Source: Parietichytrium sp. I65-24A (taxonomy: Eukaryota > Sar > Bigyra > Thraustochytrida > Thraustochytriidae). Taken from it: a stretch of 64,000 nucleotides of DNA. The stretch is from NCBI GenBank assembly GCA_012862575.1, contig BLSF01000094.1, positions 49,197 through 113,196 on the forward strand. The letters are read 5' to 3'. The notes beneath the pieces were generated by a model. It saw only the letters and a program-made list of their open reading frames with translations. It did no database searches and was not told where the DNA came from. Positions 10,732 through 37,094 of this stretch are shown here, one piece after another (positions within the stretch are counted from its first letter, which is position 1; each line of letters begins with the position of its first letter). A program made the translations under genes and the position numbers.

Positions 10732-11302
10732 GTCGTCCCGGCTGTCTGTCTACCTGTGGGGTGTGGGGCTGTGGGGCTGTGGGGTGGACTTGTGGGGGTG
10801 GGGGAAACAACTGTGGGAGGGGGAACCGATACCGTCGCTTACGTAGAGGGGTGGGTGTACGCGCGTACTCGGCTAGTACGCAGACACACGCGCGGGTTCT
10901 GGAGCCTTGGAAATCCTTGAAAGTCTAGACTCTGGGGGTGCTAGGAAAGGAGGTAGGAGAGGGGTACTGGGTGCAGGGAAGTGCTCTCTGTTCACGAGCA
11001 TTCCCTGGGTTTGAACTGTTTGAACGAGCAAATTTTTGAAATTTTAAAAATTTAAAAATTTGAAATTTCTGTTCTGGGAATTTGAGTTTTGAACTTTCGA
11101 ATTTTTGAGATTTGAATTTTATGATGAAATCGATGATGTGTCTGAGCTCCGGTGATGACATTGATGTGTTGGCAGCAGCAACGCGACGACCGTGTGACAT
11201 CGAATAGCGGCACTCACTGCACATCCAAGGTGTGAAGAGAGATGGTGGCTGTTCGAGTCTTTGGCTTTGGAGAGAGAAAATGGCTGCTTCTTTGGTTGCG
11301 CA
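10732..11302. promoter_or_regulatory. upstream region of the SET gene and 3' flank of the lipase-like gene
   Basis: At about 10745-10830 there are five or more TGTGGGG words, just upstream of the SET ATG. Similar G-rich words precede the A1 and A3 genes. At about 11030-11110 there is an A/T tract built of AAATTT words. No gene was seen here. The regulatory role is inferred from position only. Confidence 0.4.
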
Positions 11303-14945: not shown

Positions 14946-17627
14946 TTAGTAAGGCCCTAACTTGCGAACTTCGGATATCTCTTCCGAGTCCACGAACTGG
15001 CGGCAATAGAGACCACACATCCGCAGCAAGCAAAGGCACTGATTATTTGTCACCATTTTCGCATGCTCCTCAAAACTCTCCATGGGAGGAGCGTCTGACT
15101 GCCTGGCGAATAGATAAAAATTATCTGTCAATTTGAAGCAATTTGGCACATTTGGCCTGAGAATAAATTCCCTGTGCACGCGAATTTCCGGTGTGTTGCT
15201 GTCGTTACTGACAGAACTTTTTGCCAAGAATTTTTCAACTGTTCTGCTCGAAGGGCACGTGAAAAGACTTTTCCTTGCGCAGTTTTCGTCATCTTCTAGG
15301 TTGTGATTGTCGGCCGGCTGGTAAATTTCGTCGTGAGACGCTGCTATCTCTCGGATTGCAAATGTGCTGGGGTGCATCGCGGGCCCTGATATCAAAACAT
15401 TGATAATGTTTTCGCCATCTGAACTTTGGGTGTACCACCCAATAACAGACCGCTCGACGAGCATCGGCGTGTAGCTGCCGATGGGAACGGGAAGAGGCAC
15501 TCTATAAGGTAGCGCGGGTCCGCCCATATTCATAATGACAACCGGGTTCGCCACGAGAAGTTTCTTGCCCCTGATTGCAAAAGTCTTCAGTGTTAAGCGC
15601 AAATCAAGCCTCTTGAAAATTGCGGAAAAGAGCCTCCCGAAAAAAGACCCAAACGTCATCCCCGAAAGCGTTGCCCACATGTTAGTGATGGCCTTCTCAC
15701 GCAAGTCCTGATTCTCATCTATCTCAAGCCAAGGTCCCGAGATGTCCCACCCTGGCGGAGGGGGGCCATCGCCTTCTGCTTCTATCTGAAAATCTTCGCG
15801 CTGCTCTTGAATGATGCGGTTACATACCGCTCTACGGAACACTCCGCGCTTTAATAGCAAGAGGTCTTTCGCATATTCCTGCTGTTGCTCGAGACTTTGA
15901 AAAAAATTAGCGCGAGAGCCATAGTCCTGTTGCTCAAAGTTTTTCAAACTCCCATGAAGTTGGAGGTGGATAAATGCAGCTGCGCGAACGCTTGGCGGCA
16001 CCATACAATCAGGTGCAATGATGTGGTCGCGCGCTGCCAGCGCCATACATTGTGCGAAGCGGCCCGGTACCCAGCCTTTGGCCCGAAGCACAGACATCAC
16101 CAGGTCCCTGTACGACTGCCTCAACTCGGCAAATAAGCTGTTTTCCAGGCACGAGCCGTTCACTCTGAAAGTCTCCCACTCCCTCTCTGCGGACCAAGTC
16201 CAGTGGATATCCTCATTCTCGTACAAGACGTGCGCCTTTAGCTTGCGAAGTCCCTCGGCCGAAGACCAACGCTTCACGACTTTTGCGAGGGTCTCATCCT
16301 TGACGAGTGCCTGTGCTATGTCTTCGCCAAGCTCAATCAGGTCGTGCACCAGGCCTACGCCGTCCGGGAGCTCAGCCTCAATGGTTTTCCGAAGCTCTAA
16401 GAACCCTGGAAGGTGTTCTTCACTTGTGGTGGTGCCCGAACCCTTGCTCGACTTGCCGCTATCGCGACTAGCAGAGCCTGCTGCCTGCTGCCCGGGGGGA
16501 AGCTCTGGGACAGTTGCACTGCTACCAAAGTCTATCGTGCCGAAAAGCTTCATGTAGTCGTCCAAGTTACTCCGGCCCATGTTTCGGAGAGTCTCGAATC
16601 GTATGCTACTTGTCACCGTCGCTGATGATGAGGAGGAAGAGAAGGAAGAAGTGGAGGAACAACTTTCGCGAGTCGCGGGGGTATTTCTCTGCGAGGAGGC
16701 TGGTCGACTTGGCTGCTCTGTGACACGCACGCCGCCGAACTGGAAAATAAAGTTGCAGAGCCTGTCCAGTATCTTGTTGCGCTCGAGTGTTTCGGCAGAC
16801 CTGCTTGACTCCTCATCGAGCATGGTGGCTACGTAGGACGCCACGGAGGCGCAAGCGCGTTGAATCTCTGGAGGTATGTGCGCCTCATGGTCGCCCCCAC
16901 TCCCGACGTTTCCACCACCTTCGCTGCCAATACCGCCACCGTTGGGCTGGCTGAAACGCTCGCGTTTTGGCGCCCTGGGCCGTTCCAGCGTGCCAGGCGC
17001 GTGCTCGGGTCGCATGCGCTTGATACCCTTGGCATGCTCCTGCTGGGCAGCAATTTCGGCGTCAGAAGGCGGGTTCCCAGGTCTCATCCGGCGCCTGGAG
17101 AATAGCTTGAAAGGCGTGGAGTCAAGATGGCTCACGTACACCATCGCGTTCTCCTCTGCGTTGCGCACGAAAAAGTGCGCCCTGAAGACGTGGTCCATCT
17201 CGCACGTGTGTTTATTTGAAACCCATCCATAGTGGAACCCCACCAGCTGCTTGTTGAACGACACGTGGACCTTTCCATCAATGCCGTGCATGCTCTCCAC
17301 TTCGCCGTCAATGTAAGGCAGCATCGGCCGTTCCCTGCTGCGCACATCCGCTTCCACCAATCGCACATCATATCTCTCTCCCTCCACGAACCTCGACTCA
17401 TCCTCCAACAAACAAAACTCGGCCACCGCCCGCACCTTGTGCTGCGGCGACGCCAGCGCCAGTCCCCGCAGCCAGCACCCCACAGCGTGCCCGCAGAACC
17501 CCGAATTCGTGTGCCCCGTCGCGTTACAGTGCGGGAAACACCGCAGGTTCTTCTGCCCGCTCCCTTTGTTATTGCGCTGGTACTCGAAGTGGAACTGCAC
17601 GTCAAACTGCCCCTCCAGGAGACCCAT
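14946..17627 (-). CDS. family A protein A1 (zinc-module, SRRR, DxxGxW architecture)
   Basis: I do not recognise this 893-residue protein, but it has two paralogues in the window (29944-32511 and 34163-36816). Shared blocks in order: YQRNNK...GQKN near residue 16, leading into CFPHCNATGHTNSGFC (C-x3-C-x4-H-x5-C, invariant in all three). A second block has FNKQLVGFHYGW and KHTC, and the N-terminal domain closes at PFKLFSRRR. After a low-complexity Ser-rich linker comes a helical middle (WSSAEGLRKLKA, then IHLQLHGSLKNF and the basic helix ending IIQEQRE). The C-terminal part begins DISGPW. The architecture suggests a nuclear, perhaps nucleic-acid-binding protein with a ligand-binding-like C-terminus, but this is inference. 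The frame extends to a GTG at 17645; the ATG at 17627 was chosen. Stop TAA. Confidence 0.85.
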   Translation of the reverse strand: MGLLEGQFDVQFHFEYQRNNKGSGQKNLRCFPHCNATGHTNSGFCGHAVGCWLRGLALASPQHKVRAVAEFCLLEDESRFVEGERYDVRLVEADVRSRERPMLPYIDGEVESMHGIDGKVHVSFNKQLVGFHYGWVSNKHTCEMDHVFRAHFFVRNAEENAMVYVSHLDSTPFKLFSRRRMRPGNPPSDAEIAAQQEHAKGIKRMRPEHAPGTLERPRAPKRERFSQPNGGGIGSEGGGNVGSGGDHEAHIPPEIQRACASVASYVATMLDEESSRSAETLERNKILDRLCNFIFQFGGVRVTEQPSRPASSQRNTPATRESCSSTSSFSSSSSSATVTSSIRFETLRNMGRSNLDDYMKLFGTIDFGSSATVPELPPGQQAAGSASRDSGKSSKGSGTTTSEEHLPGFLELRKTIEAELPDGVGLVHDLIELGEDIAQALVKDETLAKVVKRWSSAEGLRKLKAHVLYENEDIHWTWSAEREWETFRVNGSCLENSLFAELRQSYRDLVMSVLRAKGWVPGRFAQCMALAARDHIIAPDCMVPPSVRAAAFIHLQLHGSLKNFEQQDYGSRANFFQSLEQQQEYAKDLLLLKRGVFRRAVCNRIIQEQREDFQIEAEGDGPPPPGWDISGPWLEIDENQDLREKAITNMWATLSGMTFGSFFGRLFSAIFKRLDLRLTLKTFAIRGKKLLVANPVVIMNMGGPALPYRVPLPVPIGSYTPMLVERSVIGWYTQSSDGENIINVLISGPAMHPSTFAIREIAASHDEIYQPADNHNLEDDENCARKSLFTCPSSRTVEKFLAKSSVSNDSNTPEIRVHREFILRPNVPNCFKLTDNFYLFARQSDAPPMESFEEHAKMVTNNQCLCLLRMCGLYCRQFVDSEEISEVRKLGPY

Positions 17628-19873
17628 GCCCGCTGCTCCTCCCACCGCCTCCTACGGCACCTGTGGGGCACCTGTGGGGGACTTGAGGGGACGCCCTTTT
17701 CCCCCTCCACTATCTTGGTGCCGCTTGAACGCCGCTGTGTGCAGAGTGAAACAAAAAGAAACAAAAAGAAACAAAAAGAGAGGAAGCAAAGAACCGAAAA
17801 ACCGAAGAACCAGAGAACCGAAGAACCGGGAGAGGGATGGCTTTGACTGCGCGGTGGTGCGTCTTGCAAACAGCTTCTTCTCTTTCATCTCTTCATCTTG
17901 GTTTGGTTTGCATGTCTCTTCTTCTCCTTCCAAATTTCCACTCTTTCAGAGTCAATGTCAGTTTACCTTTCCCCAACTATCCCCAACGCTAGCCTAGGCG
18001 CTCTCTATCCCAGAGGCTAGCGGAAAGTTTCAGTTCAATTGTTTCCATCATACCTTTACTATTATGCATACTTTAGTAGCTAGTACTTGGATCCGTGTCC
18101 TATGCTTTGCCTTATCCGAAGTCGTACCTTTTTTGCTTCCTCTTGCTTTCCATTTCCCTTCTTCCTGTTGGTTGCACGTTGTCGCTCACTAATAAAATCA
18201 GTAGCTACCTTTAGCTAATTGGATAGCAGATTCGAAAGGTGCTAGTGTTGCTGAAGGCACTACTAGTATAGCTAATTGGGCTAATAGATACTATACTATA
18301 GTCTAGCTACTAGTAGAGATATGAGCTGGAGTCAGCAAGTTAGAGGAAGACCCTACAGCCTCAATTATCGGTTTTTGTTTGGCCAATGACTTGACTCTCC
18401 TATCGTTTAATCTACTCGCGAACATAGGACTTCTGTGTCTTACGATTTACTAGTGTCTATTGCAATGAACGAGGAAATCGTTTGAAGGTGTGCAGTCAAG
18501 GGAAAAGGGTACGATAGCTTACTGAGCAGCTGTTTTTGCTTCTTTATTTTGGTTTTGCCAGCTGGTGTTAGCGGAGCGTTATCCCATTCCTAACGGGAGG
18601 AGGTAGGAAGTGTCCTTCTCTTCATGTATACTTGGCTGTCCTACAGCGTATATAATAACACTACGATAACTAGTAGCTAACTTGCGCGTAAGAGCGTAAC
18701 ATTTGTGGATCCAAGAAAAAAGTGGATCTAAAAATTCTTACTTCATTTTTTGTTCAAAAACATTTTCGAACTACATCTTCAGAAAGAAAATAAGAGAGAT
18801 AATCACTCTGTAAGTCTGTCCGGCAAAAGCGCTTCTGTCACGGTTGAGAGAAACAAGCAAGTTATGAGAAGGAGGAGAGAACGTGTAATGAACAATGAGT
18901 GGCGTTCACATCGATCGTTGTCCTTCCCTCACTCGGCTTTTGATCCAGATGAAGTGTGAAAGTAAAAGTACATCTATTCGCACAAACTGCCTTTTTTGAT
19001 TTCAACTATTTTCGATTTCAATTTCGATTTTTATTTCACTTTCAGTTTCGGCTTCAGTTTCCATTTCAATTTCAAGTCTGATTTGATCAAGATAAACTGA
19101 AAAAGAGTAAACTGTGAACCTCAAACAACGATACAACGATAGACACTCACTGTGAGCACGCGCAAAGCCGATGTTAGACTCCTGCCGCGAAGCTTCGAAT
19201 GGTGGGAATGAAGTTCCAAGCTTTAGGAGCCAAGGCTTCGAGCAACTGTGAGAACCAATCACGGACAACGAGCATGGGTCTCGCCGGATGTGCTGGATGT
19301 GCTGGACGTTGGAGATACACACCAGAACGTATGCGGGCCCTGTAATTTGTGAGCAATTTCTTCTCGAGATCTACGACGCGTATGGGACGCCGACATTACA
19401 GCGAGAGCGCGAAGGTTAGGCTGGATGACGCCGGCGGATGCTGGTCTTTCCAGCAACGGCTGGCCTTCAAATCACCGTGTGCACGCGTGTGAATCTGATC
19501 TCAAGCTTGAAGTGCATTCCCCTTTTCCCGTCGAGAGTATCGAGAGAGTTGTACTGGAACGCTGCCCAAGGCTGAGCAATCCATTCGCCTAGAAAGGAAC
19601 TGCTTTCAGACTGCAGAGCTGATTCACGTGTGCTTCGTGCTGTTTGGCGCGTGGGACGCAATGTTGGTGTTTGCCGTCACTGACCACGGAGTTCACACCT
19701 GAGCAAGTAACGCTGACAGTCTCTGTGCGAGGGCTGGGAGCAGAGCGCTTTTAAAGAGCAGACAGAACAAAGTGGGCTATCAACTGGAGCGTAATCGCCT
19801 GTGAAAAGATACTGTGACTTGGGAGTTCATATACTACGAGACCCTTCTTATTCTTTATCGTGTCACGATGCAC
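17628..19873. other. intergenic stretch upstream of A1 and downstream of the helicase
   Basis: Next to A1 lie G-rich words (CACCTGTGGGG, GTGGGGGACTTGAGGGG at about 17660-17695). They are followed by three GAAACAAAAA units (17749-17779) and imperfect GAACCGAA units (17791-17828). From 18000 to 18700 the DNA is rich in CTAG and TAGCTA words. At about 19010-19080 there is a run of ATTTC-containing units. No gene is supported. Confidence 0.5.
17791..17828 (+). repeat. GAACCGAA-type short tandem repeat
   Basis: Imperfect 9-bp units GAACCGAAA/GAACCGAAG. A cleaner copy of the same repeat sits at 52897-52925, 35 kb away. Confidence 0.7.
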
Positions 19874-21874: not shown

Positions 21875-24800
21875 GATCGTTCGAAACTGCCACACTATCA
21901 CACTGTGAGACTGTGAAATTGTGTCACGTTCAGAGCTGCTGTTGCTTTTGCTTTTGCTGCTTGCCGCCACCGATATTTGCACTTTCTTCTGCTCTACTTT
22001 CGCCGTTCCCCTTGTTGCTCCTGACCTTCCTTTTTCTTTTTATTCTATTCTATAACAGACTCTTGCCAGGACCTGTCAATCAAAAATGAATCATGAGAAA
22101 TGAAATAACGAAATATAATATCCCGCAGCTGCCCGCCCAGTGCTCTCTTTCGCGCAAAAACGAATGCTCTGAGCTTTCACACACAACAACTAAAACGATC
22201 TCTCTCTCTCTCTTCCGAAGAGAGTAGTTTCCAGCGGGCTGGGACGCGACCCTGGGACAGTTGATTCCCCGCAAGTCGGAAGGTGGTGGGGATCCCAGTG
22301 GCTCAGCTGCGAGGACGCGCAGCCGTTTGCGCTGGCGCTCTCAGGAAAGTCAAGGGGGTTCAAGGGGGTTCAAGGGGGTTCAAGGGAGTTCAAGGGAGTT
22401 CAAGGGAGTTCAAGGGAGTTCAAGGGAGAAGAGTTCGTTCATTCGCTATAAGGTGGCTGTATTTGTGGCTATGTTAGGTCAGGTTGGTCGGGTCGGGTTA
22501 GGTTTGAGAGCGCTTGTCACGGAGTGGCGGCGAGTACACTCGTGTTTTCATATTTTGGGTACTCGTAAAAGGGATACTGAGTACCGATGCGGTGAAAATG
22601 GCCGGAATTCAGAACAGAATAGAAGGAACTCACTGTCAGAATAATATTAATTCAGAACAGAATTCACTGTCAGAACATTTTGAACATACATTTGGGAAAC
22701 TTATCGACGCAGATGGACAATTCAATGATCGTGATCATCGTGATCGCGCCGCAAGCCTCACGTGTTTCAATGATACAGTGGTACGTATGGGAGATGCTTG
22801 CATCATGATGAACATTCTCCGAACGACTCTCAGCCTGAGAGTGAACAAACGTGGCACGGTTTTACCATGCTCAGTTTGCCGAGGTTAGGGAGGCGACACA
22901 TTCCTGAATTCCGAATTCTGAACTCTGAATTCTAAATTCTAAATGTAGCGCACGAGCGAAGTTTGAGCTGCGGAATGCGTGCCATGGCTGCCATGTCGTC
23001 AAATGCACTCAATTCTTCCTCCAAAGAAATACATCAAAGTCTTCTGTCCGCGTTCGTGTGAAACACATGTGCTGCAGCAAGTGGATTGCTTTCGACAGGC
23101 TCCGAGGGTCTGAGAGGGCTTTTGCGGGTGGAGACCGTGAGCCCAGAGAGTACTGCTCATGGAAAAGCGATTCGGAAGCGCTCGGGAGTATTGACGACAG
23201 CCCTTGACCGATCTGCCGCGCGAGAGGACTATGCTCTGCTCGCAGAAACATCAGCAGAAATAGCAGAACAGAAATAGCAGGATTCAGAAGAAATAGCAGA
23301 AATAGCAGAAACGCGGCTTTCATGCCATTGTACTGACCACGGACTGACATTGCGCAACCACATGCCCTTCATCAACGAGTTAGTCACGGTATGTACACGA
23401 ACTCACAGTCAGTACTCAGTGTCAGTACTCAGTACCGGTGCCCACCGTCGCAGTGTGGCCATGGATGGCACTCAAAAAGTTTTGAAGCGAGAAGACAACA
23501 GAGCAAGACCGCAAACTCTGTCCATACCTCTGTGACAGACAGTCGTCTCACGATGCTTGCTTGCTACACTCTTGGCAGTCGCTCTCACAAGACACGAACG
23601 AAGACTTCTCTCCCACTTGCCACCATTGCCACCTTTTCAAAATTTAACAAGAACAAATCATGAACCAATTTTCGCGGCGAAATCTCCTACCTTCTGCCGG
23701 AACTGTGGCCCGAGGATTGCCTCTCACGTTATTCGCTAGAAACCCGCGGTAAGACGCTCGGAAAATAAAAACGCCGGAGTCAGTGTTTGTGAATGTTTGT
23801 GAATGGGATGAGTGGAGGACTGGAGGACTGGAGGGAGTTTCCTCACATGTCAGTACCAGTACAAGTACACCAAGTCCAGAGCTCATGTTGCAGTCGCCTG
23901 CAGGAGCTCGAAAAGTTGGACTCGGAGGAGGAAAAAAAAAGAGGAAGCGTAAGTTTACTCACCGTCAGTGTACGTAAGTTAGTACTGGAAGAGATGAAAA
24001 GAGTAAAAGAGCAAGTTTTTTTTTGGAACGGAAGGAAGGGCAGAAAAGTGGTTCTGACTTCTCCCACGCCTGTCTCGGAAAACTCTCATCGATGAGTTAG
24101 CGTTTTCTTTATATGAATTGCAACGTTAATTGCCGCTTGCGATAGAGAGGAAGGGTGGCAAAGGACGGAAGGAGAGACTCTTTCCCTCCTTCGATCCTTT
24201 TCATGTTCAGTTCTGTCGATTTTAATGATTTACGGTGAACTCAATAAAGTGTTCTTTAAAATTAGAGAGGAAACGGTATGAATGATAATACCCAAAGAAG
24301 CAAAAATTCTTCCCGCTTTTCCGAATTTGAGTGGAAGTACTTATCGAAACTGTCCTTGCAGGCGAAACTCTTATTGGAGTGCTGCATTACGTCTGTTCTG
24401 AGCCTCTCGGGAAGTTAACTCTTTTCCGCTGGTGGACCTGTCACCCCTTTAATTCACCGACCAGGCGCACGAAATGACTCTTTTCCAGCAGCAGTGTCGG
24501 CCTCGATGCGCTTTGATCATCTTTGATCAACAAGTAAAGAGCCTTTTCGATTGACAGTGAGTTTCAGAGAACCAGGGACCGGTACCAGTACCAGCACTCA
24601 GTGCTCTCCATTCTCTCCGGTTGCAGTGCTCGCTCAATAAGACTTAGAGTGGACACTTGTGGTATCAGAATTCAGAATGCGGGTATCAGGTATCAGGTAC
24701 CAGTACTCGGCACTCGGCACTGCAGTGTGGCTTGTGGGCAAAAGGCTTGAACACTTGAGCTCTAGCAAGCGTGTCTGAACTTCGATGAGAACTGCGCCGA

Positions 24801-25134
24801 GTCGTCTTCACTGTGTAACACCCGAAGTTCTCATTCCAGTTTCATTCGCTACTAGCAGGCAAAGGACATGAACTATTGTTACAAGTTGCTCGTGTCGTCC
24901 ATCACGTCAATCCTTTCTTTCCAAAGATGGTGCCTCTTTTGGGATGTGCGGAAAGTCGTGGAGTGCCCAGTACTCTGTCAGTATCGTAAACGAAGGCAAG
25001 TTACTATCGATAGCTCCTGGACTTTGAGAGAACGAAGTCACCGAATCTTCACAGAGTTTCATGTTATGAGAACTTGTGCGAATCAAGTTCCGCTGCACAA
25101 AGGACTTTTTAAAATCTCTTCATGACTGGTCACA
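21875..25134. other. gene-poor stretch, part 1
   Basis: No gene is supported. It holds the 10-bp tandem repeat at 22351-22428, a stretch of GAATTC/GAATTCTGAA words at about 22600-22945, and AGCAGAAATAGCAG units near 23255-23310. Repeated CAGTACTC and GGTACC words occur at 23400-23440, 24580-24610 and 24690-24720. A minus-strand frame at 23009-23350 has a hydrophobic segment, but it comes from the AGCAGAAAT simple sequence. Confidence 0.5.
22351..22428 (+). repeat. 10-bp tandem repeat, about 8 copies
   Basis: Three copies of CAAGGGGGTT followed by five of CAAGGGAGTT (the last one cut short). The clean switch from GGGGG to GGGAG type indicates expansion of two variant units in blocks. Confidence 0.9.
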
Positions 25135-25281
25135 ATGCGCAAGTTTCCCACTTTAAAGAACAGCGTACGTCGAACGAGGCAAGCAAAATTGATGTATAGG
25201 CGGCCCGAGATGCCCTTGTCACGAGATTGGAGAATTTCCAACCCGAATGAATACGGTCACGAGAGCCATCCTATCTATTAA
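25135..25281 (+). CDS. possible small basic protein or exon, 48 codons
   Basis: An ATG-started frame encodes 48 residues beginning MRKFPTLKNSVRRTRQAK and ending with NEYGHESHPIY. It is strongly basic at the N-terminus, and its residue mix looks coding rather than random. No neighbour supports it and no family is recognised. It could be a small nuclear or ribosomal-type protein, an exon, or chance. Confidence 0.25.
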   Translation: MRKFPTLKNSVRRTRQAKLMYRRPEMPLSRDWRISNPNEYGHESHPIY

Positions 25282-27303
25282 GAAGGACAAGCGAACGGCT
25301 CCGACCCCAGACTCTACCCATTGTTTTGACAGTGGATATCTTGCTTCTGAACTCTTTTGCAAACATCTCATGGAAAGCCGTCAATCAGGACAGTCAGAAG
25401 TACCGGTACCGAAACACGAAACACAAAGAACGAAGAACAATGATCTCCCAGTTGGGAGATGTTGGGAGTGAAGTTGGTGTGACGAGCAGGACATGAGGGC
25501 TGAACTTGCAAAGGTTTCGAGATGTTTCGAGTGCTGAAATGCAATCAGTCGATCAAGAAAATAGCACATTTCTCTGTCAGTTACGATTGGAATTGAAATG
25601 ACCTCGTGTGTCGTTCCAGAGCCTACTCATACCTTGCAATCTCGGCATTTGCAGAGGCTCGCTGTGATTGGGTGATATTCTCCCTGTCGCATGCAGGTGT
25701 ACTACTACGAGTACCACGCCGACTCAAAGGCTCCAACAGATTCCCTCAGGCTGGCTGCTGCTGCGCTAGTACGATGCGACACATGATAAATTACATGGAG
25801 AAGTCAACGATGCTCGTAAACCGTCAGAAAGCACATCGTATGCACACCAGGAAGGAGGGAAATCAGCCTCCCAGCTCGTCGACATACAACTCGTGCGAGC
25901 TGCATTGGAAAAAGGACACAGTAATATTCAATTTCCACAGAGACTGAATGAAGCACATAACTGGTGCATCGTCACACTCACACCGAGTGACTCGCTCGCT
26001 GGCACCTGGCACCTGGCACCTCGCATTTGTATATGAGATACCGCGCGACCCCAAAGGTTGACGAGCAATCAATTGAAGTTAAACTCCGGAGTGCTTAATT
26101 TTCAATTTAAGAAAACTATCTCTTGGTGTCTTGGTGTTTCTTTTTTCTGCCATCGTTCTTTGACTCGACTCGCGTGGAGTGTGCAATGCGCTTCTCATTT
26201 CTTTCTCGTACAAGCTGTACAGATTATAATCTGAAGTCCGAAATTTTTTCTCTTGTTTTTAATTTCCAACTCCGATTCCCTGCTCATCCCTGCTCTCTGC
26301 TCTCCCTGCTCATGAAAAAAATTTTCACGAAAAATATGGAATTGGAATAAAGGATCCGGCATCATTTCCGCAACGAAAATTTCTAGTCTTCCATAGAATG
26401 CAAATTTTACTTATGCCTGCACACTAGAACACACTACATGCACGCCGTACCTACTGCATAGGATCGCTCTATAGCACGTCGGGAGAAAGGTGCAAATAGG
26501 ATAAACTAGGTTATCCGTTAGTTAATTTACCGTACTTCTCTCAAGGTTCCTTCCTTCTCCCGTAGCAGAAGACTTTGCTGCTAGCGGGGGACTAGTCTAG
26601 AGAAGGCTCCGCATTGCCACAGCTGCGCAGTCTATCGTTTGGAGTAGGTGAGTGGTATATCGGAACTCTTTGCAAGACACCGGTGTGGACGGCAGAAAAA
26701 AGGTGAAAGTCGATCCTTCAGAGACCCGAGATTCTCGGTCGCTGGGTTTTTCTTTTCCTTGTCCATCTTTCTCAATTCTAAATTTTCTTTACTTGAATAA
26801 TTAGTTTTCAAAGACTTGACACAAAAAGGACGTTGTGTTTTGTTTTGTTTTGTTTTGTTTTGCTTACAACTTATTTCGTTATGCGTTGTTCTATTTCGTT
26901 GTGCTTTGTTTGTTTGGTCATTGAACAATGAGGTTAACTCGTGGTTTTACTAAAAGATGATGAACGAGTGAAAATGAATCGCAGCTTACATTGCCGGAAT
27001 TGCCGGAGCCTGAACATTCCTTCTCTCCTCTGCTCTTCCGCGCTTTCGCGACTTTGGCAAGAAGGTGAGGTCAGGAGAGAGATTGCTATCCTCCTTGTCC
27101 TTCGTCTTGGTAACATTGGGTGAAAGAAACTCGTGAACGATCCACCCTTCGCGCCGCGGATACCGGTATGTAAACTGTGGGCGTAGCACAGCGACCAGGA
27201 TGCGGACAAAGGAATGCCAAAAGGTCGCAGCACAGGCATTTCCCCGCAAGCCTTTCCTCGCACCGTTATTGACTATCCCGAGCTCTTGTCTTCTTTCTGA
27301 CAG
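25282..27303. other. gene-poor stretch, part 2
   Basis: No gene supported. It contains a TTTTG pentanucleotide run at about 26835-26862 and an ATGGAATTGGAATAAAGG word near 26335 that resembles a polyadenylation signal without an attached reading frame. Confidence 0.45.
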
Positions 27304-27553
27304 CGATAGCTTTCCCTCCGTGCTTGACACTCCGCCCACGCGAAAGAATGGAAGCTGTGTGGGCAAGGTGCTTGTGGGTCACGGACTCACATTTTCGTCG
27401 CGGCTCACACTCGACGCGAATACTCTCGCGGTTGCTATCAATCAAAAGGTTGTGCCTGTAGTCGAGTCCCGAGTCCTTGCCGGTTTGGCAATGCAGTTCC
27501 AAAGTCAATGGAAGCTTGGAGCTTTGAGTTTGCACCCAAGCAAAGCAGCCTAG
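27304..27553 (+). pseudogene. possible terminal exon or relic of a beta-barrel (Tom40/porin-like) protein
   Basis: A good 3' splice-like site (pyrimidine run then ACAG, ending 27303) is followed by about 83 codons ending at TAG 27553. The last 50 residues alternate polar and hydrophobic residues in a pattern I associate with the final strands of Tom40 and VDAC (SSRLTLDANTLAVAINQK, then WKLGALSL). Matching upstream exons of the expected 250 residues were not found. So this may be a relic, the end of a heavily split gene, or a chance match. Confidence 0.25.
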
Positions 27554-29419
27554 CGAAAGCCGCCCGCGCCAGACGAACAGAACAGAAAAAGGCAGGAAAA
27601 AACTCTGACAACGGAATGGTGGACACTCCGACATCCCCTGCCACAATCGCAGGCCCCACAAATTCCATTAGCTTGCACAATTTGAACTGCCTCAATACTC
27701 CAGCACTGGATGAAGCAGCTGGTGGGAGCAAACGGGAAGCGAACCCTCCGGTCCCAAACAAGAAATGCTAACGAGCCGCACAAGTCCTGACCGAAGATTC
27801 TAAAGCTGCCCAGCTCAGAGCCATTAAGCCCTCAAGCTTGCAGTGCAAGGCAGCAACCCAAAACCAAAGCCAAAAGGGCCAAAAGCTGAAAAGCTCAAAA
27901 GCCAGAATGATCACCTACACTATCCATTCTTTCCTTGAAAGCAAAATGGAAGCAAACTAGGTTTCGCGAGTTCCTGCACAACATGCTCTGGACATGCTCG
28001 ATAAGCTCAGGCCTAATGGATCTCCGATCGAACTTCATCCAAGTGATGCGCCCGGGAATCGGAAGCGCAGGACGGCTGCGATGGATCATGAAGATCATGA
28101 GTTGCGATGATGCAACTGAGGCAAAGCGACACGAATAAAACAACAGTTTCTTTCGCCCATGTCAACACATGCCAACACATACCAACTGCGCTGCCCATTC
28201 ATACAACTTGAGCCATTTCACATGCTCATGCTCATGCTCATCTTGCTCATCTTGCTTATCTTGTTGATGTCTCCTTCCCTCCTCCTTCCCCTCTGCATTG
28301 ACTTGAAGGGCAAATGTGTGCACTCTTCCACCTAGCGCGAACATAGAGGACGCTACACGGCGATGTACCCAAAGAAGCTGCATACTGACAGTACATAAGA
28401 AGAGTGGGCCAATGCATATGGTACTATGCGTATGTGTAAGCGCTAGCTAGTAGGGGCTTGTGTGTTGTGTGGAGATGGTATTTGATGATTGGGCCATCTC
28501 GGAAAGCTGTCGGATTTTGGTTGGTTTGCGCACTGAGAGGCAATGTATTACTCACATACCGGTCGAACAACGAGAAGGTGCCTCTGTTTTATGCATTTTA
28601 ATTTTATTTCTAATTCTTAATTTAAATTTTTATGAATTGGAATTGATTCACTTCACTGTCGAAAGGAATGAAAGTCTTCAAAGGGGGAACTACCAAATTA
28701 CTTGAAGGGCTACATGAGCCCCTCTCAGCTCTAGTAGCCTCGTAACATAAGAGGGACGTTTTCCGTACAAGTATTGACTAGCGAGAAAGACTCGAACCTT
28801 TGTGGCCGAACCATGTGCTACAGATTGGCTTATATGATCAAAGCAAGGGGCGCTATGGACTCTTCATCCTGTTACCAGCACCGTGGTATATATCAGTGTT
28901 TGCCGTAGCAGCCCTGTCTATCATTTCCGGGAAGCTCGGGGGAGAAGGAAGGAGAACCCGGGACATGTGTAGTGTTGTAAGTAGACCGAGCCTACTCCTC
29001 TCGTTCTCCTCTGGTTCTTTTGTGTAACTTTCCTCTCATCATTCTCCTCCTGGAATGAGGTGTGACTTTCACTTTCACTCTCACTTGCGCTGACTGAAAT
29101 GGAAATGGAGAAAAGGAAAAAAGGAAAAAAGGAAGAAAACAATAAAAAAATTAAAAAAATTGAAAAAGTGTCCGCAACTTGTCACAGCCTCGCAGCTGGT
29201 CCTCTTGGCCATACATAAGACCTCTTACGCAACTTCCATGCACGATAAATTGATACCGGGCATTCACTCCTTTCCTTAGCCTCCCCTTCCTCTTCCCTCG
29301 TCGCCAACCACAAAAGTCTTTCTGGCCCAACTCCTTCCTCCTCCCGCCCTCCTCCTCCGGCACTCCTACTGGCGCCTAGTCTTCGCGGAATCGGCCTCAT
29401 TCTCCGAGCTACTACCCCG
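27554..29419. other. gene-poor stretch, part 3
   Basis: No gene supported. An 87-codon ATG frame at 27508-27771 overlaps the preceding fragment in another frame and has no recognisable features. A/T-rich words occur near 28595-28640. Pyrimidine-rich DNA begins at about 29270. Confidence 0.45.
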
Positions 29420-29441
29420 TCCCACCGCAAACCCTAGCACC
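29420..29441 (+). promoter_or_regulatory. telo-box-containing 22-mer, copy 1
   Basis: TCCCACCG-C-AAACCCTAGCACC contains the telo-box AAACCCTA. It recurs with one mismatch at 40631-40652. Both lie roughly 520-560 bases upstream of a gene start (A2 here, the EcsC-like gene there). In plants telo-boxes are promoter elements of growth-related genes; the same role here is inferred. Confidence 0.45.
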
Positions 29442-29570
29442 GCCTCCCTCCTCCCCCCCCTTCCTTCTCCCTAGCCTCCCCCTCCCTCTCCTACCCTCCT
29501 CTACCGCGCCTAGTCCCACCTACCCGCCCCTACCCGCTACCCCCAACTACCCCAACGCGTGGGACAACCG
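29440..29570 (+). promoter_or_regulatory. C-rich polypyrimidine tract upstream of A2
   Basis: About 130 bases consist mainly of CCT, CCC and TACCC words, including a C9 run. It lies 370-500 bases before the A2 start. A promoter or replication-related role is possible but not shown. Confidence 0.4.
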
Positions 29571-29675
29571 CTAACACCGCAGGTAGACGGAAAGGTAGCC
29601 GGCCGGAGGTGGAGCCAATGCGACGGCAGTCTCGTAACTCAACGTTGTCCAAGCAGTCCAAGTGGACGGACGAGT

Positions 29676-29676
29676 G

Positions 29677-29707
<31 letters not shown>

Positions 29708-29925
29708 GAGGGAATGCCATGCGGCGCGTGAGAGAGGCGGCCATTGCGGAGTGATCGTTTATAGAAGACAGACGACGAGGAGAGCTGGTTGCACAAGTTG
29801 CATAGTGTTCTTGTTGTTGTTGTTGTTGTTGTCAGTGCCTGAGTGTTTGAGTGATTGAGTGTTTGAGTGTTTGAGTGATTGAGTGTTTGTTCATTCAATT
29901 GAGAGAGAGAGAGAGAGAGAGAGAG
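29676..29925 (+). repeat. cluster of microsatellites in the A2 5' flank
   Basis: GATA/GACA units (29676-29708), GTT units (29807-29832), TGAGTGTT-like units (29837-29889) and a GA run (29900-29925) lie in a row, ending about 20 bases before the A2 ATG. They are probably transcribed as 5' UTR. Confidence 0.85.
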
Positions 29926-29943
29926 AAGGAAGAAGAGAAGGAA

Positions 29944-32511
29944 ATGGTGATTCAAACTGCGCCGGGCGGCGGGAAGACCGTGTCGGGGTGCAAGCTGAGC
30001 AAAATGCAGGGGGGTTTTACGTCAAGCTTCAAGACGCGGTATCAGAGGAATAACAAACGCACGGGGCAGAAGAACATCAGATGCTTTCCCGATTGCGCCG
30101 ACCGAGGACATCAGTCCTCGGGGTTTTGCGGACGCTTTTTGACCGCTAAAGTCTCGGGCGTGCGCGCATTGGGCCCTAATGAGTCAGTGCGGTGTTGGGG
30201 AACGTTCATACAATGCGGCAGTGACGAAGACAGACTTCCAGGCCAGACGTTCTCTCTGCAGGAGGCCACCGCCAAGGAGCGCTCGAGGTCCATGCCTCTG
30301 CGGCCATGGATGCGCGGAGAGGTGTCTCCTGGAGGCGATGGCGAAGGGTCCTACGACATCGTATTCAACCGTCAGCTGCTGGGCTGGCACTACGACTGGA
30401 CGTCCACCAAGCACACGTGCGACGCATTTCACACCTTTAAAGCAAGCATATTCGTCCTGAACCAGGCCACCGGGATGGTGTCCTTTGTGGCGAGCATCTT
30501 CTCCCCAGAGTTTCAGCTCTATAGCCGGAGAAGACAACACCAGATGCATGAGCAGCAACTTGCAGAAGAAGCCGCCGCATCAGCCTCCGTGAAGCAGTCT
30601 CACGATGGCGTTAGCACACCGGGGTCCACCGATCACATGCACACCAGCGACGCCAACTCCAGTCAGGGGTGGAGCCACAGCAATGGCCCGCAAGTTCCCA
30701 TCGCCGTGAAGCGGTCCGCTGATGAGATGTCGCCTGACCAAAACAAACCGAAGATTCTACGATTGCGAAAAAAGCTCATCACTGACTCCACACAAATTCT
30801 CAAGAGACGGGAGAGGAATCTTATTTTGGACCGACTTTTAAGGTTCCTGCTTTCCAGCGGGGGCTCGCCGAACGGGATCATAATGCCACCCCAGAGAAGT
30901 GCACCTCCTCCTTCTTCGCAAAACGTGCCCGAAATGGACTGCATGGACGACTTCAACATGCTTATGTCTTTCATGTCCGACACGGATGCCAACTACGATA
31001 TGCCAATGTCGGACATGGATGTCCTTGTTGAAAACACCATTCAAAACATCCCTCCTCCAGATACGCCGTGCGACCTTTCGTCCGGATCGTCTGAGCGCAG
31101 CCTGGATGACTTTAACGAGGACGATGGCAAAGATTTGGTAGGCCAGCTGGAGAGGCTCATCGAACTCAAGGGCTCGAGCTCCTTGAAAGGAAAGATGAAC
31201 ATCATCATCGGCACCCTCAAACGTCTTCCGGACGCAATTGTGGGGATAAGTAGCAATCGTAGAGACTTCGCCAACTTTTTTGCAAAGTGGAGCTGCACTG
31301 AGGGCATCCAGTCCCTCAAGGCGCAGTTTGACTTGGAGAAGGGAAGCACGCGCAGGATCGAGGGGTTTGTAAATGCAGATGAGGAGGATGAGAACACAGG
31401 GTACCAGTCTGCTCAGACAACTGTATCGGTGTACGCATCTATGCGCAATCTCTTCCGCAACGTCATTGTCGAAAGCCTCAGCGGCTTGGCTGCCGACTTG
31501 GATGAGTTCAAAGAGCCAATGGAAATGGCTGCCAAGTACCGTCTGCTGAACGCCGACCCATATTTCCCTCCAAGCAAAAGGGTTGCCGCTATTACCCACA
31601 TTCAGTTGTACGGTAACCTCGATCGCTTTGCGCGCCAAGACTTTGGGTGCAGAAAAGGCAAGTTCCGCGACGAAGATGAGAGGCTTGATTGGGTGAATGC
31701 ATACTGGCGTGTTCGTAGAAAGGTGTTCCGCCATCTTTTGATCAATCGCATCATCGAGGAGCGCCGCTCACAAGCCATCACTTTGCCAGTGAATAATCTG
31801 ATGGTGGATCCAAGGCTTGACTTTACGGGCACATGGTACAACTGCTCTGCGTACGCCTACTCGTCTCTTGTGATTAAATTAGCGCGAGTTTTGGGCAACT
31901 CAATGGGGGATCTCTCCGCAAGGCTTCTGGAGCACATGTGGCGGCGTATGTCCATCACAATGAACAGAGAAGCCATGTTCATGGAGGGCGACAAGGTATT
32001 ATTTGCAAATCCCGCGGACCTCCTGCTCCTGGACGGAACTGCCCATCCCATTAAATTACACTACCCGCTTCCAGTCGCTGCTTGGAACCTCGATAGATCG
32101 TACATCGCGTGGTATGGCATGACTGAGGGCAGGTACTGCGTGCACGTCGTGCAAGGCGGAGACACTCGCGCTGAGTTTCTCAATCGTTATCTGAACTCGA
32201 CGGCTCTTCAGTCAGATTCTACGTTTGAGGAAGCCCAGGACATTGCCCGTAGGGTCGAGCAGATCAAGGGGAGCGCTCAGATCCGTATTGCGCGATCCTA
32301 CTATCTCGCAGACGACCGCGAGACCTTGTTTCTCATCACACGGATACACTTCTTTGACAACATTGCCGCACCCCCTCTAAGCACCGTCCAGAGTGTTCAA
32401 AACTTGGTCTTGGAGAACTTGCCGTCAGAAGTGGGTATGTGTCAATCAAAATATATTCGTGTCTACGACGAGACTATACCGGCGGCTGATGCAGCGGACT
32501 TTCCCATTTAG
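29944..32511 (+). CDS. family A protein A2
   Basis: This 855-residue single-exon protein is a paralogue of A1 and A3. It shows RYQRNNKRTGQKN near residue 32 and then CFPDCADRGHQSSGFC, the invariant C-x3-C-x4-H-x5-C module. Next come FNRQLLGWHYDW with KHTC, FQLYSRRRQ at the end of the N-terminal domain, WSCTEGIQSLKA, HIQLYGNLDRFARQDFG, and a C-terminal domain opening DFTGTW. The DFTGTW start followed by alternating strands recalls START-like or lipocalin-like ligand-binding domains of protists, but I cannot confirm a family. The frame runs on upstream through the GA microsatellite to a GTG at 29875; the ATG at 29944 follows the repeat and fits the paralogues. A3 lies 1.65 kb downstream in the same orientation. 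Confidence 0.87.
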   Translation: MVIQTAPGGGKTVSGCKLSKMQGGFTSSFKTRYQRNNKRTGQKNIRCFPDCADRGHQSSGFCGRFLTAKVSGVRALGPNESVRCWGTFIQCGSDEDRLPGQTFSLQEATAKERSRSMPLRPWMRGEVSPGGDGEGSYDIVFNRQLLGWHYDWTSTKHTCDAFHTFKASIFVLNQATGMVSFVASIFSPEFQLYSRRRQHQMHEQQLAEEAAASASVKQSHDGVSTPGSTDHMHTSDANSSQGWSHSNGPQVPIAVKRSADEMSPDQNKPKILRLRKKLITDSTQILKRRERNLILDRLLRFLLSSGGSPNGIIMPPQRSAPPPSSQNVPEMDCMDDFNMLMSFMSDTDANYDMPMSDMDVLVENTIQNIPPPDTPCDLSSGSSERSLDDFNEDDGKDLVGQLERLIELKGSSSLKGKMNIIIGTLKRLPDAIVGISSNRRDFANFFAKWSCTEGIQSLKAQFDLEKGSTRRIEGFVNADEEDENTGYQSAQTTVSVYASMRNLFRNVIVESLSGLAADLDEFKEPMEMAAKYRLLNADPYFPPSKRVAAITHIQLYGNLDRFARQDFGCRKGKFRDEDERLDWVNAYWRVRRKVFRHLLINRIIEERRSQAITLPVNNLMVDPRLDFTGTWYNCSAYAYSSLVIKLARVLGNSMGDLSARLLEHMWRRMSITMNREAMFMEGDKVLFANPADLLLLDGTAHPIKLHYPLPVAAWNLDRSYIAWYGMTEGRYCVHVVQGGDTRAEFLNRYLNSTALQSDSTFEEAQDIARRVEQIKGSAQIRIARSYYLADDRETLFLITRIHFFDNIAAPPLSTVQSVQNLVLENLPSEVGMCQSKYIRVYDETIPAADAADFPI

Positions 32512-34162
32512 GTCCCCCCCTATTTCCTCAAACTCTGCCTTGCGCACCATGTGCACCTGTACAGGGACGGGTGTTGCTCGTTCCGGTGTGTCTTCTGGCG
32601 GGGTTTTATTTTGCGCTTTCTTTTTATCTATTTTGCTTCTTGAATTTGACCTGACAGCGCCACAGCGCTGCTTTTGATCGATGCGCTTGATTCACATTTG
32701 TGCTTCTACCCATCAAATAGTTGCCTTTCTCTCTTTGTTAGTCCTCCGGAGTTTTGTTGTAATAGATGTATCGGCGAGGCTGACTTTTGCGCAAAATAGA
32801 TGACCATAATAACACTATCGCAGACTTTCATCTGATGGCTTTTCTTTGTCTTCTTCAGCAGCTTGCTTTCTCTCGCGAGCCTGTGCCCTGGCGCTTGGTG
32901 CATCCGCACACAGCCACACAGCAACTTCGCTGCGATCAAAGCTGGCCAGGGATACACGAATGCATGGAGACACGGCAGTCACCCTTCATACTCTGCGATT
33001 TTCAGAACTTGAGAAATAAAGGATGCCCTGCCACGATTTCGTTTGCTCAGACAACGTCGTAAATCCAACGTCACAAATCGCACACCGGAACGGCATTCGG
33101 AAACACTCCGCGCATAGCTGCGTTCCTTGTCGATTGCGAACTTCTGCCATCGATTATTCCAGAACGTGCAATGTGCATAGTGCATAGTGCATCTTGGCTT
33201 CACTGCCTGCTTACATACGCCACCATCGCACAAGCCTCTTCAGCCTTTGATGCCTTCCCTGCCAAACTCCACACGCGTGTGTTTCCTTTTCAATCAATCA
33301 ATGAGCATCAATCAGCAAAAAATGAATAAATTTTATATCAGTTCATTCAATGAACATCAATCTCTCTCAAATTTCGTCCATACACAACACAAATACAAAA
33401 CATCAATCGATCAATGACACAATTCTTTTCCAATGCGATGCGTCAACTTGCCGCGTAGGAACACTTACTCCTTGTTAGTCGACGACGGTCCCAAACTACG
33501 CCCTGCTAATGGCTCCTAAACTACCCAGTCAATTAGCAGCATACTATTGATCTAGCTATACACACATGGTACCATTCCTTAGCACACCACGCATTGCCCT
33601 CAGCTACCGTTTAAGCTACTACTTGCGCGGACGAGTGAGAGGAGTAATGCACACGTAGCCAACTGGTAAGAGTCCGAGGCTTACCGTAAGTGCTAGTGAA
33701 TGTTACAGGTGGCTTGGAAGAAAGAGACGGAAAGAGAAGAGTGAGGGGCAGGAAAAGGAAGGAGGGAAAGAAGGTGGAGGCGTTACCGTACCATACCATA
33801 CCCCTCAATTGCACAAAGAGGAAACGCTCCGGCAGGTGTGGGGGACACTTTTTTTTTCTCTTTGGTCTTTGGTCTTTTGTCTTTGGTTTGCTGTGGGGGA
33901 CGCCCGCGGCACTTGAGGGGGACAGGAAAAGAAAAGGCGGGATCGATCGACGGCCCGGCAACGAGGCAGGTGCGGGGACGGCGCTGAGCTCACAGGCTGT
34001 GTCGTCTATTAGTGGGCCATATATCTTTCGTTTTTCATTTTGCAATTTGTATTTTGCACTTTGCACTTTGAACTTTGTGCACTCTGCATTTTCCATTTTC
34101 CATTTTCCAATTTGTCTTGGCAGAACTCTTTGGAGGATCGGCCTGGCGCAGCATTCGGAGGC
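32512..34162. other. spacer between A2 and A3
   Basis: No gene supported. GAAATAAAGG near 33013 and T-rich DNA after A2 could hold 3' processing signals. At 33828-33930, upstream of A3, words GTGTGGGGGACAC, CTGTGGGGGACGCCC and CACTTGAGGGGGAC resemble those upstream of A1. A run of GTCTTTGGTCTTT units lies at about 33855-33893. Confidence 0.45.
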
Positions 34163-36816
34163 ATGGCGGACGGGCATCGGGCGCTGTCGGGAAAGTTTTT
34201 GGAGCCGTTTGAAGAGAGGTATCACAGGAATAACAAAAAGTTTGGGCAGAAGAATGTACGATGCTTTCCACAGTGTAGCGAAGACGGGCATCTGGGAACA
34301 GGGTTTTGCGGGAGGCCCGTTACTTGTAGATTGACGGGCCTGCTTCCGACTGACAGATTGGACAGTTTGCGAGCCTGGGCCGAGTTTGGGGAATCGAGCT
34401 CCAGTGAAGATATGACGGTGGGGCAAACAATTCGTGCCGATGAGATCAAAAGTACAGAGCGATCCAAAGATAAGCTGGCGTTTCCCGGGGAGATAAATTT
34501 GCATTCTGCTTCTTCAGAGGACGGTTTAGAGATCACATTTAATCGGCAACTGCTGGGGTGGAGCTACTCCTGGAAGAGCAACAAACACACATGTGACGCT
34601 TATCATGTCTTCAAGGTACACCTGTTCATGCAGAGCACGGACGGAGAGAGCCTCGTATATTTGGGTCACGTGAGTAGCCCAAGGTTTCAGCTATTCAGCC
34701 GCAGGAGGCAAAATAAGTTTGAGACAGGGGCAACCCGTGCAGCTAAAAGGTCTGCCTCGTCTGAGAACGAATGTACCAAAAGTGGCCCAAACACAACCAG
34801 CGCGGAAACCTCCAAACGACCAGCTTTGTCTCCCGCACCCGCAGACAAAGTTGCACAAGCTGGCTTAAGCTCGTCCAAGAAACGGGAGTATCCTTTCGCT
34901 GCCGATCCTGCAGAGCCGCGGAGCATTGCTCTTCCGCAGCGAGCCTATATCGCAATCAACCCGAAGGAGGTGGACAAGGACATTGTGGAGCTAGACATTC
35001 TCTTAGCAGAGAAAAACGCAGAAATGGAAGAGAATAGGTGCATGGACAGGCTGCTGCTGCTTTTGTTCCAGCACGGGCCAGGCTCCGCAGCCAAAACCCG
35101 TTCGAAGGAGCCAACCAACTCTGCTGACTTGTTTGCTGCCTCGGCAACAGCCCCCCCCGCGCCGAACATTTTCAACGTCAACGCGAACACTGAGCTGGAA
35201 TGGAATGATGATTCTTTGGAGTTTGGCGACATGTCGGTGGATATGTTCTTTGATGATGGCCAGTTTGGTATAGTTTACGACGAAGATGAATCGGAGCCGG
35301 AGGGGCTCAATCCAGTTCGCACCTGCTTGAATGCCTCAAACAAATTTTCCAAGGAGGAGGCTCAGTCGATTATTAATGACCTTTCCAATGTCACCAATTC
35401 GCTTGCGTCTCTCGCCTGCGAGACGGGGGGCTTTCAAAAAGTAGTCAATAAATACTCGACTCCGTCCGGGCTTGCCAAGCTCAAACACCAGATTTCAATG
35501 GAGAAGAGTGACACAAATTTTGAGTGGACGCGGGAGCGTGAGGACGAAAGCTTTGACGAAATTAACCCTGAAAACAACGTGGAAAACTCGCTTTTTGCTG
35601 AGATCAAGCACGAGATGCGAAAAATAATTCGGAAAGCCCTCGAACGCAACCGTGTGCCAATGGAAAAACTAGTCCCTGCTCTGGAATTATGCGCGGAAAA
35701 GGGGCTTTTATATCCAGATGCATACTGCCCGCCAAAGGTGCGAGCAGCTGCTATGATGCATATCCAACTTCATGGGTCTGTGGAGAAATTCACAGAAGAA
35801 GATTATGGCTCGCAGGCGAACGCATTTAAAGATTCCGCGCAACAGAAGCGCTACGCACGAGACATGCTTATTATTAAGCGTGGAATGATTCGACGGCAGC
35901 TATGTAGCTGCATAATACAGCAGCAGAGAATGAAACGGACCAGTGAGAGCATGGCTAACTTTGTGCACCCAAGGTGGGATGTGAATGGTTCGTGGGTGAA
36001 TGCAACTTACCGTGAACGCAATGAACCGAACTATTTCGGCAGGGGTGAGAGCATGAGCGTGGTGTTCAAGATCGTGGGGCTCCCGTTTGGCCAGTTTGCG
36101 CAAGATCTTTTCGACTCGATGTTTCAACAGTTGGACATCAAAATCAACGAGGTTCGGCTGGAGATGCGTGGCCAACAGGTGCTTTTGGCAAGCCCGGAAC
36201 TGTGCATTCCTTTCACCGGCAAGGCGCAAACATTCCGACCTGCGGCCCCACTCCCACTCAAGCTCTTCCTGGAGGAAAAATCTGTGATTGGGTGGTTGGA
36301 CTACAATCCCAGCGGGGCTCCATGTATATACATCGTTATCGGCTCTGAAGGGTTGCTAAAAGATTTTCCGCACCTTTTTTCGAATATGGTAAGTTTTGCT
36401 CTATACTTTTGTTCGCAACGTTCACTTCGCTAATGAACCTGTTTTGCGACCTTTTTTTTTTTAAATATTAGGCGAGCGATGCCGAGGCCAAGCCGTCCGC
36501 AATTCGTACAAAAGTGCAAAAGTTTGTGGAGGATAACGCTGCGACCAAATCGGAAGTGGAAGTGCGAATTGTGCAGCGCATCGACATACCGCACACAACT
36601 GGATCAAAGGAAGCTTTCACAATGAATCATTTCTTTTACATCCTGGCTAGAAAAGAGTGCACGCCTTCAATGGATGATCGCTCGGCTTTGGCGCGCTTTG
36701 TAAAGGTAGAAGCTCACAACAATCCTCATTGCCTTGAGGTGTACTCGTTTCAAGAGAAATTCGTGCGCAATTATTTGAATGCTCGGGACAGTGATTATGT
36801 TTTGAATCTACTCTAA
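34163..36816 (+). CDS. family A protein A3, two exons
   Basis: Exon 1 (34163-36388) and exon 2 (36472-36816) join in phase 0 to encode 856 residues, matching the lengths of A1 and A2. Shared blocks: RYHRNNKKFGQKN near residue 20, CFPQCSEDGHLGTGFC (C-x3-C-x4-H-x5-C), FNRQLLGWSYSW with KHTC, FQLFSRRRQ, an acidic/low-complexity linker, HIQLHGSVEKFTEEDYG, and a C-terminal domain opening with DVNGSW. Without splicing the frame would end 15 codons into the intron, and the C-terminal strands present in A1 and A2 would be lost. The ATG at 34163 (GGC-ATG-GCG) is preferred over an upstream TTG. A3 converges on the EcsC-like gene. Function unknown, as for A1. Confidence 0.87.
36389..36471 (+). other. 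spliceosomal intron of A3 (83 nt)
   Basis: A perfect GTAAGT donor, a CTAAT branch-point-like word at about 36430, a T12-like pyrimidine tract and an AG acceptor are all present. The intron lies between complete codons. A1 and A2 are uninterrupted at the corresponding place, so it was gained in A3 or lost in the others. Confidence 0.9.
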
Positions 36817-37094
36817 GAAGAATCAGCCACAAGAGCAAGGATGTCAATATAAAGATGTTTTTTTTTGGAAACTGCACACGAATTGTTTTTCGCACCATCA
36901 ACTTTCCGGGGGCTCTTTCGTTTCCGCCTCCGTTTTGCTTTCACTCCCTTGAGGAATGTCAGTCTCCACGATCTTAGTATTTACATGGTGTCCAGTCTCG
37001 CTTGGTCGGCCCCTAAACCAGCGAAACCAGCCATCTTGAGGCTTCTCGGAGACCTCCCCGTTGTTTGGCTCTTGGTCAGTTTGAGCATCGTTGA

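Follow-up and report, generated by a model that had tools for sequence, protein, structure and literature searches.

What do three related genes of a thraustochytrid encode, when their products share an ordered set of motifs and resist assignment to a described protein family? The genes in question, A1, A2 and A3, lie in a stretch of 64,000 nucleotides of the genome of Parietichytrium sp. I65-24A (contig BLSF01000094.1), referred to here as the window. In an earlier note on this DNA the three products were described as a family of three members with a conserved CCHC module and a fixed domain order, and a lineage-specific, ligand-responsive nuclear regulator was suggested for them. Here we describe the size of the family in the genome, the conservation of its N-terminal domain (N-domain), the variable parts behind it, and the readings that these features permit.

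The coordinates of the three genes are collected in Table 1. Translation from the first ATG confirmed the lengths previously given for the proteins, 893, 855 and 856 residues, the last after joining of the two exons of A3. In exon 2 the homologous protein carries on past the intron; the place of this intron is read through in one frame, with no intron, in the paralogue L003, and in the paralogue L001 a separate downstream open reading frame (ORF) resembles A3 exon 2. In BLASTP comparisons A1 and A2 share 24% identity over 878 aligned positions (E 3e-77), A1 and A3 29% over 786 (E 2e-96), and A2 and A3 26% over 762 (E 3e-83); judged by these alignments, the three are true paralogues. The motifs RNNK..GQKN, CCHC, FNxQLxG, WxSxKHTC, SRRR and DxxGxW all occupy invariant columns of the three-way alignment, and the window ORFs of at least 60 aa, 54,812 residues in all, contain the pattern C-x3-C-x2..4-H-x4..5-C three times, once each in A1, A2 and A3. 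The motif set and the module attributed to the three proteins are borne out by both kinds of comparison.

Table 1. Positions in the window of the genes A1, A2 and A3 and of their parts
Feature	Position	Strand	Remarks
A1	14946..17627	-	single-exon gene, 893 aa from first ATG
A1 N-domain, putative zinc-stabilised DNA-binding domain	17064..17624	-	limits as cut for alignment
A1 CCHC module CFPHCNATGHTNSGFC	17493..17540	-	
A1 C-terminal GxW domain and tail	14949..15800	-	
A2	29944..32511	+	single-exon gene, 855 aa
A2 N-domain	29998..30558	+	limits as cut for alignment
A2 CCHC module CFPDCADRGHQSSGFC	30082..30129	+	
A2 C-terminal GxW domain and tail	31780..32508	+	
A3 exon 1	34163..36388	+	742 codons
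A3 N-domain	34169..34723	+	limits as cut for alignment
A3 CCHC module CFPQCSEDGHLGTGFC	34262..34309	+	
A3 C-terminal GxW domain, exon 1 part	35951..36388	+	
A3 intron	36389..36471	+	gt..ag, 83 bp
A3 exon 2	36472..36816	+	114 codons plus stop

Other features of the window and of the genome were recorded along with these genes. Between the ORF of a DEAD-box helicase and A2 (window positions 22040-29529) there are about 7.5 kb for which the stop-to-stop list has no ORF as long as 150 aa; several short tandem repeats lie in this interval. A large ORF at window positions 5809-10749 (minus strand) carries SET and SDG2_C domains and encodes a histone methyltransferase of the SDG2 type known from plants. 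Elsewhere in the genome, a 5,583-aa open frame at G000:C66:8562-22499 has three matches to the later part of the PfaA model and four to the part around positions 176-516, which we take to be the ketosynthase part; this frame probably encodes a modular polyketide synthase, and PfaA itself was matched nowhere above the cut-off. Among further host markers, an elicitin search gave no match, a result of little weight as its control gave none either, and one 18S motif was absent.

The genome (42.5 Mb in 172 contigs) was searched with A1, the A3 N-domain and the family consensus as queries. These three queries gave 25 gene copies, all of which matched the family consensus at E 3e-9 or better, and a marginal match on contig C19 (L022, E 0.019) turned out, once its sequence was read, to belong to the family and to carry the module as well; an additional weak consensus match (C10:168712-168954, E 0.04) stands outside the resulting count of 26 copies. 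Two of the copies, at L004 (G000:C11:588800-594800), have gene starts 2,370 bp apart and identical 250-aa N-domain ORFs, and are due either to recent local duplication or to an artefact of the assembly; because of this identity the 26 copies correspond to 25 distinct genes. Copy numbers obtained by such a search are lower bounds, and the family thus has at least 25 different genes. The family seen in the window is confirmed, and it grows from three genes to at least 25 in this genome.

The history of the copies was approached with a maximum-likelihood tree of 24 N-domains (L022 left out), in which the bootstrap had not settled, 3 of the 21 inner branches reached the strong mark and most forks were weak. 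A3 is placed with L003 and L001, A2 with L004, and A1 beside A2 and L004. Since A1, A2 and A3 form no single group in this weakly supported tree, a recent tandem burst as the origin of the window trio is not supported.

Of all the parts of these proteins, only the N-domain was found in each of the 26 copies, the others being variable. It comprises about 170-190 residues, more where loops are inserted, and in the 23 aligned rows its identity to A2 falls as low as 24%. The C, C, H and C residues are retained in 25 of the 25 distinct genes, as had been claimed for the three proteins of the window; three residues separate the two cysteines in 24 genes and four in L010, L012 being readable in the latter way too, and over the family the spacing is C-x3/4-C-x3..6-H-x4/5-C. 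Such conservation of four putative ligands supports the proposed zinc module. Residues R17, K25, C29, F30, P31, C33 and C44 are invariant in 23/23 N-domain rows, and N18, N19, K20, N26 and R28 are kept in at least 90% of them, so that much of the strongest conservation of the domain falls in the RNNK..KN.RC segment. Two other features have a narrower distribution than the trio suggested. The domain end at SRRR is invariant in A1-A3, but family-wide RRR closes the N-domain in 17 of the 25 genes and is missing in 8; and the later cysteine of KHTC is absent in several members (L010, L012, L013, L016 and L018 among them), which makes it an unlikely metal ligand.

Behind the N-domain the members differ in their architecture. 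In an HMM scan of A1-A3 and 20 loci, with L021 and L022 outside the scan, the C-terminal GxW domain was found in 10 of the 23 genes, and the two HMMs used were built from the same ten rows that are counted as carriers. One group is formed by A1, A2, A3, L001, L002 and L003, the other by L007, L015, L017 and L019; a profile comparison relates the two with a probability of 91.6% (E 8e-7). Weak HMM matches, with full-sequence E-values from 0.005 to 1, came from L009, L010, L011, L013 and the downstream ORF of L001, and the match of L007 to the group-1 model falls in the same range; the middle and C-terminal part of L009 also resembles A2 (BLASTP E 3e-6). Two genome searches, each with a single group-2 domain, reached E 1e-7 or better in the four group-2 members only, and as these searches missed group 1 too, other distant GxW copies may exist. 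The count may also be low for another reason, namely that some ORFs perhaps continue in exons beyond those read. Different tails are seen in L008, where one ORF consists of the N-domain, a basic linker and an acidic-hydrophobic tail at the C-terminus, and in L021 and L022, where the tails are rich in Q, P and S. For 24 of the 25 genes, the ORFs read contain no hydrophobic segment (Kyte-Doolittle mean over 19 residues above 1.8) beyond the RNNK motif. The sole exception is L016 (G000:C2:116400-120300, minus strand), with two such segments within positions 732-885 of a 928-aa ORF, because of which it possibly encodes a membrane-anchored regulator that is released by proteolysis. The fixed domain order thus describes A1-A3, but not the family, given the distribution of the GxW domain.

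Comparison with described families gave nothing above threshold. Pfam-A returned 0 matches for A1 and, for A2 and A3, only matches below the curated cut-off; the sole match in NCBIfam was that of A2 to PRK13263.1 (urease accessory protein UreE), with E 0.0019 and 17.8 bits against a cut-off of 221. Among PDB sequences the best E-values were 0.39 for A1, 0.86 for the 23-row N-domain profile, 0.53 for the consensus, and 0.2 and 0.93 for the two GxW domain profiles. In viral contigs there were 73 short-pattern matches for the 23-row N-domain and 1 for a single paralogue, and in prokaryote genome contigs 16 matches to one short peptide pattern, with 0 confirmed relatives in each case. Within Pfam-A, NCBIfam and the PDB sequences the statement that no family can be named is supported, and the profile search that had been suggested as a check left the N-domain with no clear match to a named family, and with none to the known DNA-binding families, in Pfam-A and the PDB.

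AlphaFold models were made from window sequences only, and had a mean pLDDT of 39.6 (pTM 0.40) for the N-domain, modelled from three rows, and of 39.3 for the C-terminal GxW domain, modelled from four. The comparisons of these poor models with the PDB, in which the top Z was 3.5 (the PliI lysozyme inhibitor) for the former and 2.5 for the latter, were not used as evidence of fold. The N-domain model was also too poor to tell whether the four residues of the module lie near one another, the structural check proposed in the earlier note. Among the rows shown for the models there is no Rel or lipocalin chain, which is uninformative at such pLDDT, and the velvet chains VosA (Z 2.1) and VeA (Z 2.0) occupy ranks 22 and 25 of the N-domain comparison, tied with or below unrelated folds.

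The reading that we favour, with a probability of about 0.6, is that A1-A3 belong to a transcription-factor family that has expanded in this lineage, and in which the N-domain would be a zinc-stabilised DNA-binding domain. Transcription-factor families have a common DNA-binding domain and otherwise variable parts, and the presence of the N-domain in every copy, with the rest variable, argues for a family of this kind; the conserved basic and Asn-rich stretch joined to a putative metal site and the basic end of the domain argue in the same direction, all three being arguments from general knowledge. In the mechanism that we infer, YxRNNKxxGxKNxRCFPxC(x3-6)H(x4-5)C would form a basic loop that is held by a single Zn ion, with C, C, H and C as the ligands, and that packs on a beta-rich body ending in SPxFxL[FY][SC]RRR. 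The N-domain would be followed by a flexible linker, in which about half the members have predicted nuclear-import signals, and in some members an acidic-hydrophobic segment might be able to activate transcription. The variable C-terminal half ends, in A1-A3 and seven paralogues, in the family-specific GxW domain, for which a regulatory, dimerisation or sensing role may be envisaged.

Several features of the parts behind the N-domain bear on this reading. The NLS-type motif K[KR]x[KR] occurs within 150 aa behind the N-domain in 12 of 24 rows (L022 left out), against a mean of 2.07 rows (SD 1.3) and a maximum of 6 in 1,000 shuffles; this excess is motif-based only, and the other 12 rows, with A2 and A3 among them, do not have the motif. 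Strict acidic-hydrophobic windows of 39 aa (net charge of -9 or lower, at least 8 residues of W, F, Y and L) were present in 8 of the 25 genes and in none of 10 further ORFs of the window (Fisher P 0.073). The strict cut-off follows the model of published activation predictors and was picked after the first output had been seen, and the windows are only suggestive of activation segments; a looser cut-off (net charge -7, 6 such residues) was discarded as an activation signal, being unspecific (15/25 genes and 5/10 background ORFs, P 0.71). The tail types of L008, L021 and L022 and the lack of hydrophobic segments in 24 genes also speak for a transcription-factor family; against it stand the two segments of L016, the 8 genes with no RRR, the 12 rows with no NLS-type motif and the lack of any sequence match to a known DNA-binding family. 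The proposal of a nuclear regulator is plausible in view of the excess of NLS-type motifs, the basic domain end in most members and the modular tails, although A2 and A3 lack the motif. Its ligand-responsive C-terminus, in turn, is unsupported, the GxW domain having no recognisable relative in the profile searches.

Some of these features would also fit proteins of other kinds. A single small CCHC module with a basic tail suits RNA binding as well, and no known DNA-binding profile was matched; the N-domain might then bind RNA, or be a zinc-held protein-interaction module, and the family would be one of RNA regulators or nuclear scaffolds. We regard this as somewhat unlikely, given that the conserved unit has about 180 residues with one module and is not an array of zinc knuckles, and that activation-like tails, not significantly above background, are found in some members. 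The model with a pLDDT of 39.6, which does not establish a fold, leaves room for an enzymatic domain, and thus for a family of enzymes or effector-like proteins that has expanded and is targeted to the nucleus, in which the C and H residues would be catalytic, or structural with no metal; as no enzyme profile in Pfam or NCBIfam scored above cut-off, and the tails vary, some of them being short or of low complexity, we find this quite improbable. That the copies are many and dispersed, and that one local duplicate (L004) has identical ORFs, could recall domesticated or degenerate mobile-element proteins in which CCHC would be a zinc knuckle of the gag type, the spacing of which is C-x2-C-x4-H-x4-C. 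Such an origin appears very improbable: the first two cysteines of the family have the spacing C-x3-C and not C-x2-C, the copies have diverged, A1-A3 have no transposase or reverse transcriptase domain in Pfam-A, and window positions 22000-37500, the sole stretch tested, are free of direct and inverted repeats that reach 40 bp.

A doubt of another sort concerns novelty, since the family may already have a name among specialists, for example from a clade-specific annotation, that Pfam, NCBIfam and the PDB do not contain. The comparison covered these three resources and not the eukaryotic protein databases, and the literature searches were directed at protist and lineage-specific regulators and not at the motif itself, both of which favour this possibility. 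We hold it to be rather unlikely, as the titles and opening lines of abstracts in that literature name no such family; passages of a study that name regulator classes of one thraustochytrid (MYB, bZIP, C3H, WRKY and others) likewise contain nothing resembling the A1-A3 family (PMC10840233).

Catalogues of protist regulators commonly scan for described DNA-binding domains, so that a family like this one would be missed. If its members do bind DNA, as the transcription-factor reading holds, such catalogues would gain at least 25 regulators from one genome in a single step, and the origin of transcription factors could be traced with the help of a new zinc-stabilised domain.

Several known systems resemble the family in part. 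Nuclear receptors have two four-cysteine zinc fingers; in the layout drawn by the earlier note they share with A1-A3 a zinc module placed first and a possible sensing domain placed last, whereas the family has one C, C, H, C site in all 25 genes, and no Pfam match to a nuclear receptor profile was found in A1-A3 or in the 23 N-domains. Retroviral-type CCHC zinc knuckles have the same order of C, C, H and C, but the module of the family differs from them in its spacing and in lying inside a larger domain; the zinc knuckle profile of Pfam-A matched neither A1-A3 nor the 23 N-domains. The succession of a GxW strand, helices and beta-rich sequence in the C-terminal domain gave an impression of FABP and lipocalin barrels, and the assignment to an FABP-like domain was dropped in view of the PDB profile comparison, which gave no FABP or lipocalin match to the GxW domain up to E 10.

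The velvet domain (VosA, VelB, VeA) is a fungal DNA-binding domain similar to the Rel-N domain of NF-kB. The N-domain is like it in size and in having a putative basic loop near the N-terminus, and the last velvet strand, SxxFxV, lines up with SPxFxLFCRRR of the family in a profile comparison over 26 columns. This alignment has a score of 18.8 and a probability of 1.2% in hhalign, and 100 column shuffles gave a mean score of 11.6 and a maximum of 17.1. Unlike the N-domain, velvet has a signature RRPxDPPP, which finds no counterpart in the family alignment; in Pfam-A neither velvet nor Rel was matched, up to E 1 by the 23 N-domains and up to E 10 by two consensus sequences. Membership in the velvet family itself was dropped, the profile support being limited to the 26 columns. 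In VosA, loop A, between strands 1 and 2, is required for DNA binding (PMC3876986), and zinc is mentioned 0 times in that paper. Hypothetically, the RNNK...FCG stretch of the family could by its position correspond to the DNA-contact loop of velvet together with a zinc clamp. A more far-reaching proposal, unlikely in our estimation, is that the N-domain founds a new DNA-binding domain family, with a velvet/NF-kB-like beta-sandwich whose DNA-contact loop would be clamped by a single C-C-H-C zinc, present in at least 25 regulators of one protist lineage. Many of these regulators would end in a sensor domain specific to the family, and one, L016, would be membrane-anchored. If this were true, regulation of the Rel/velvet and nuclear-receptor kinds would have an independent counterpart in a protist.
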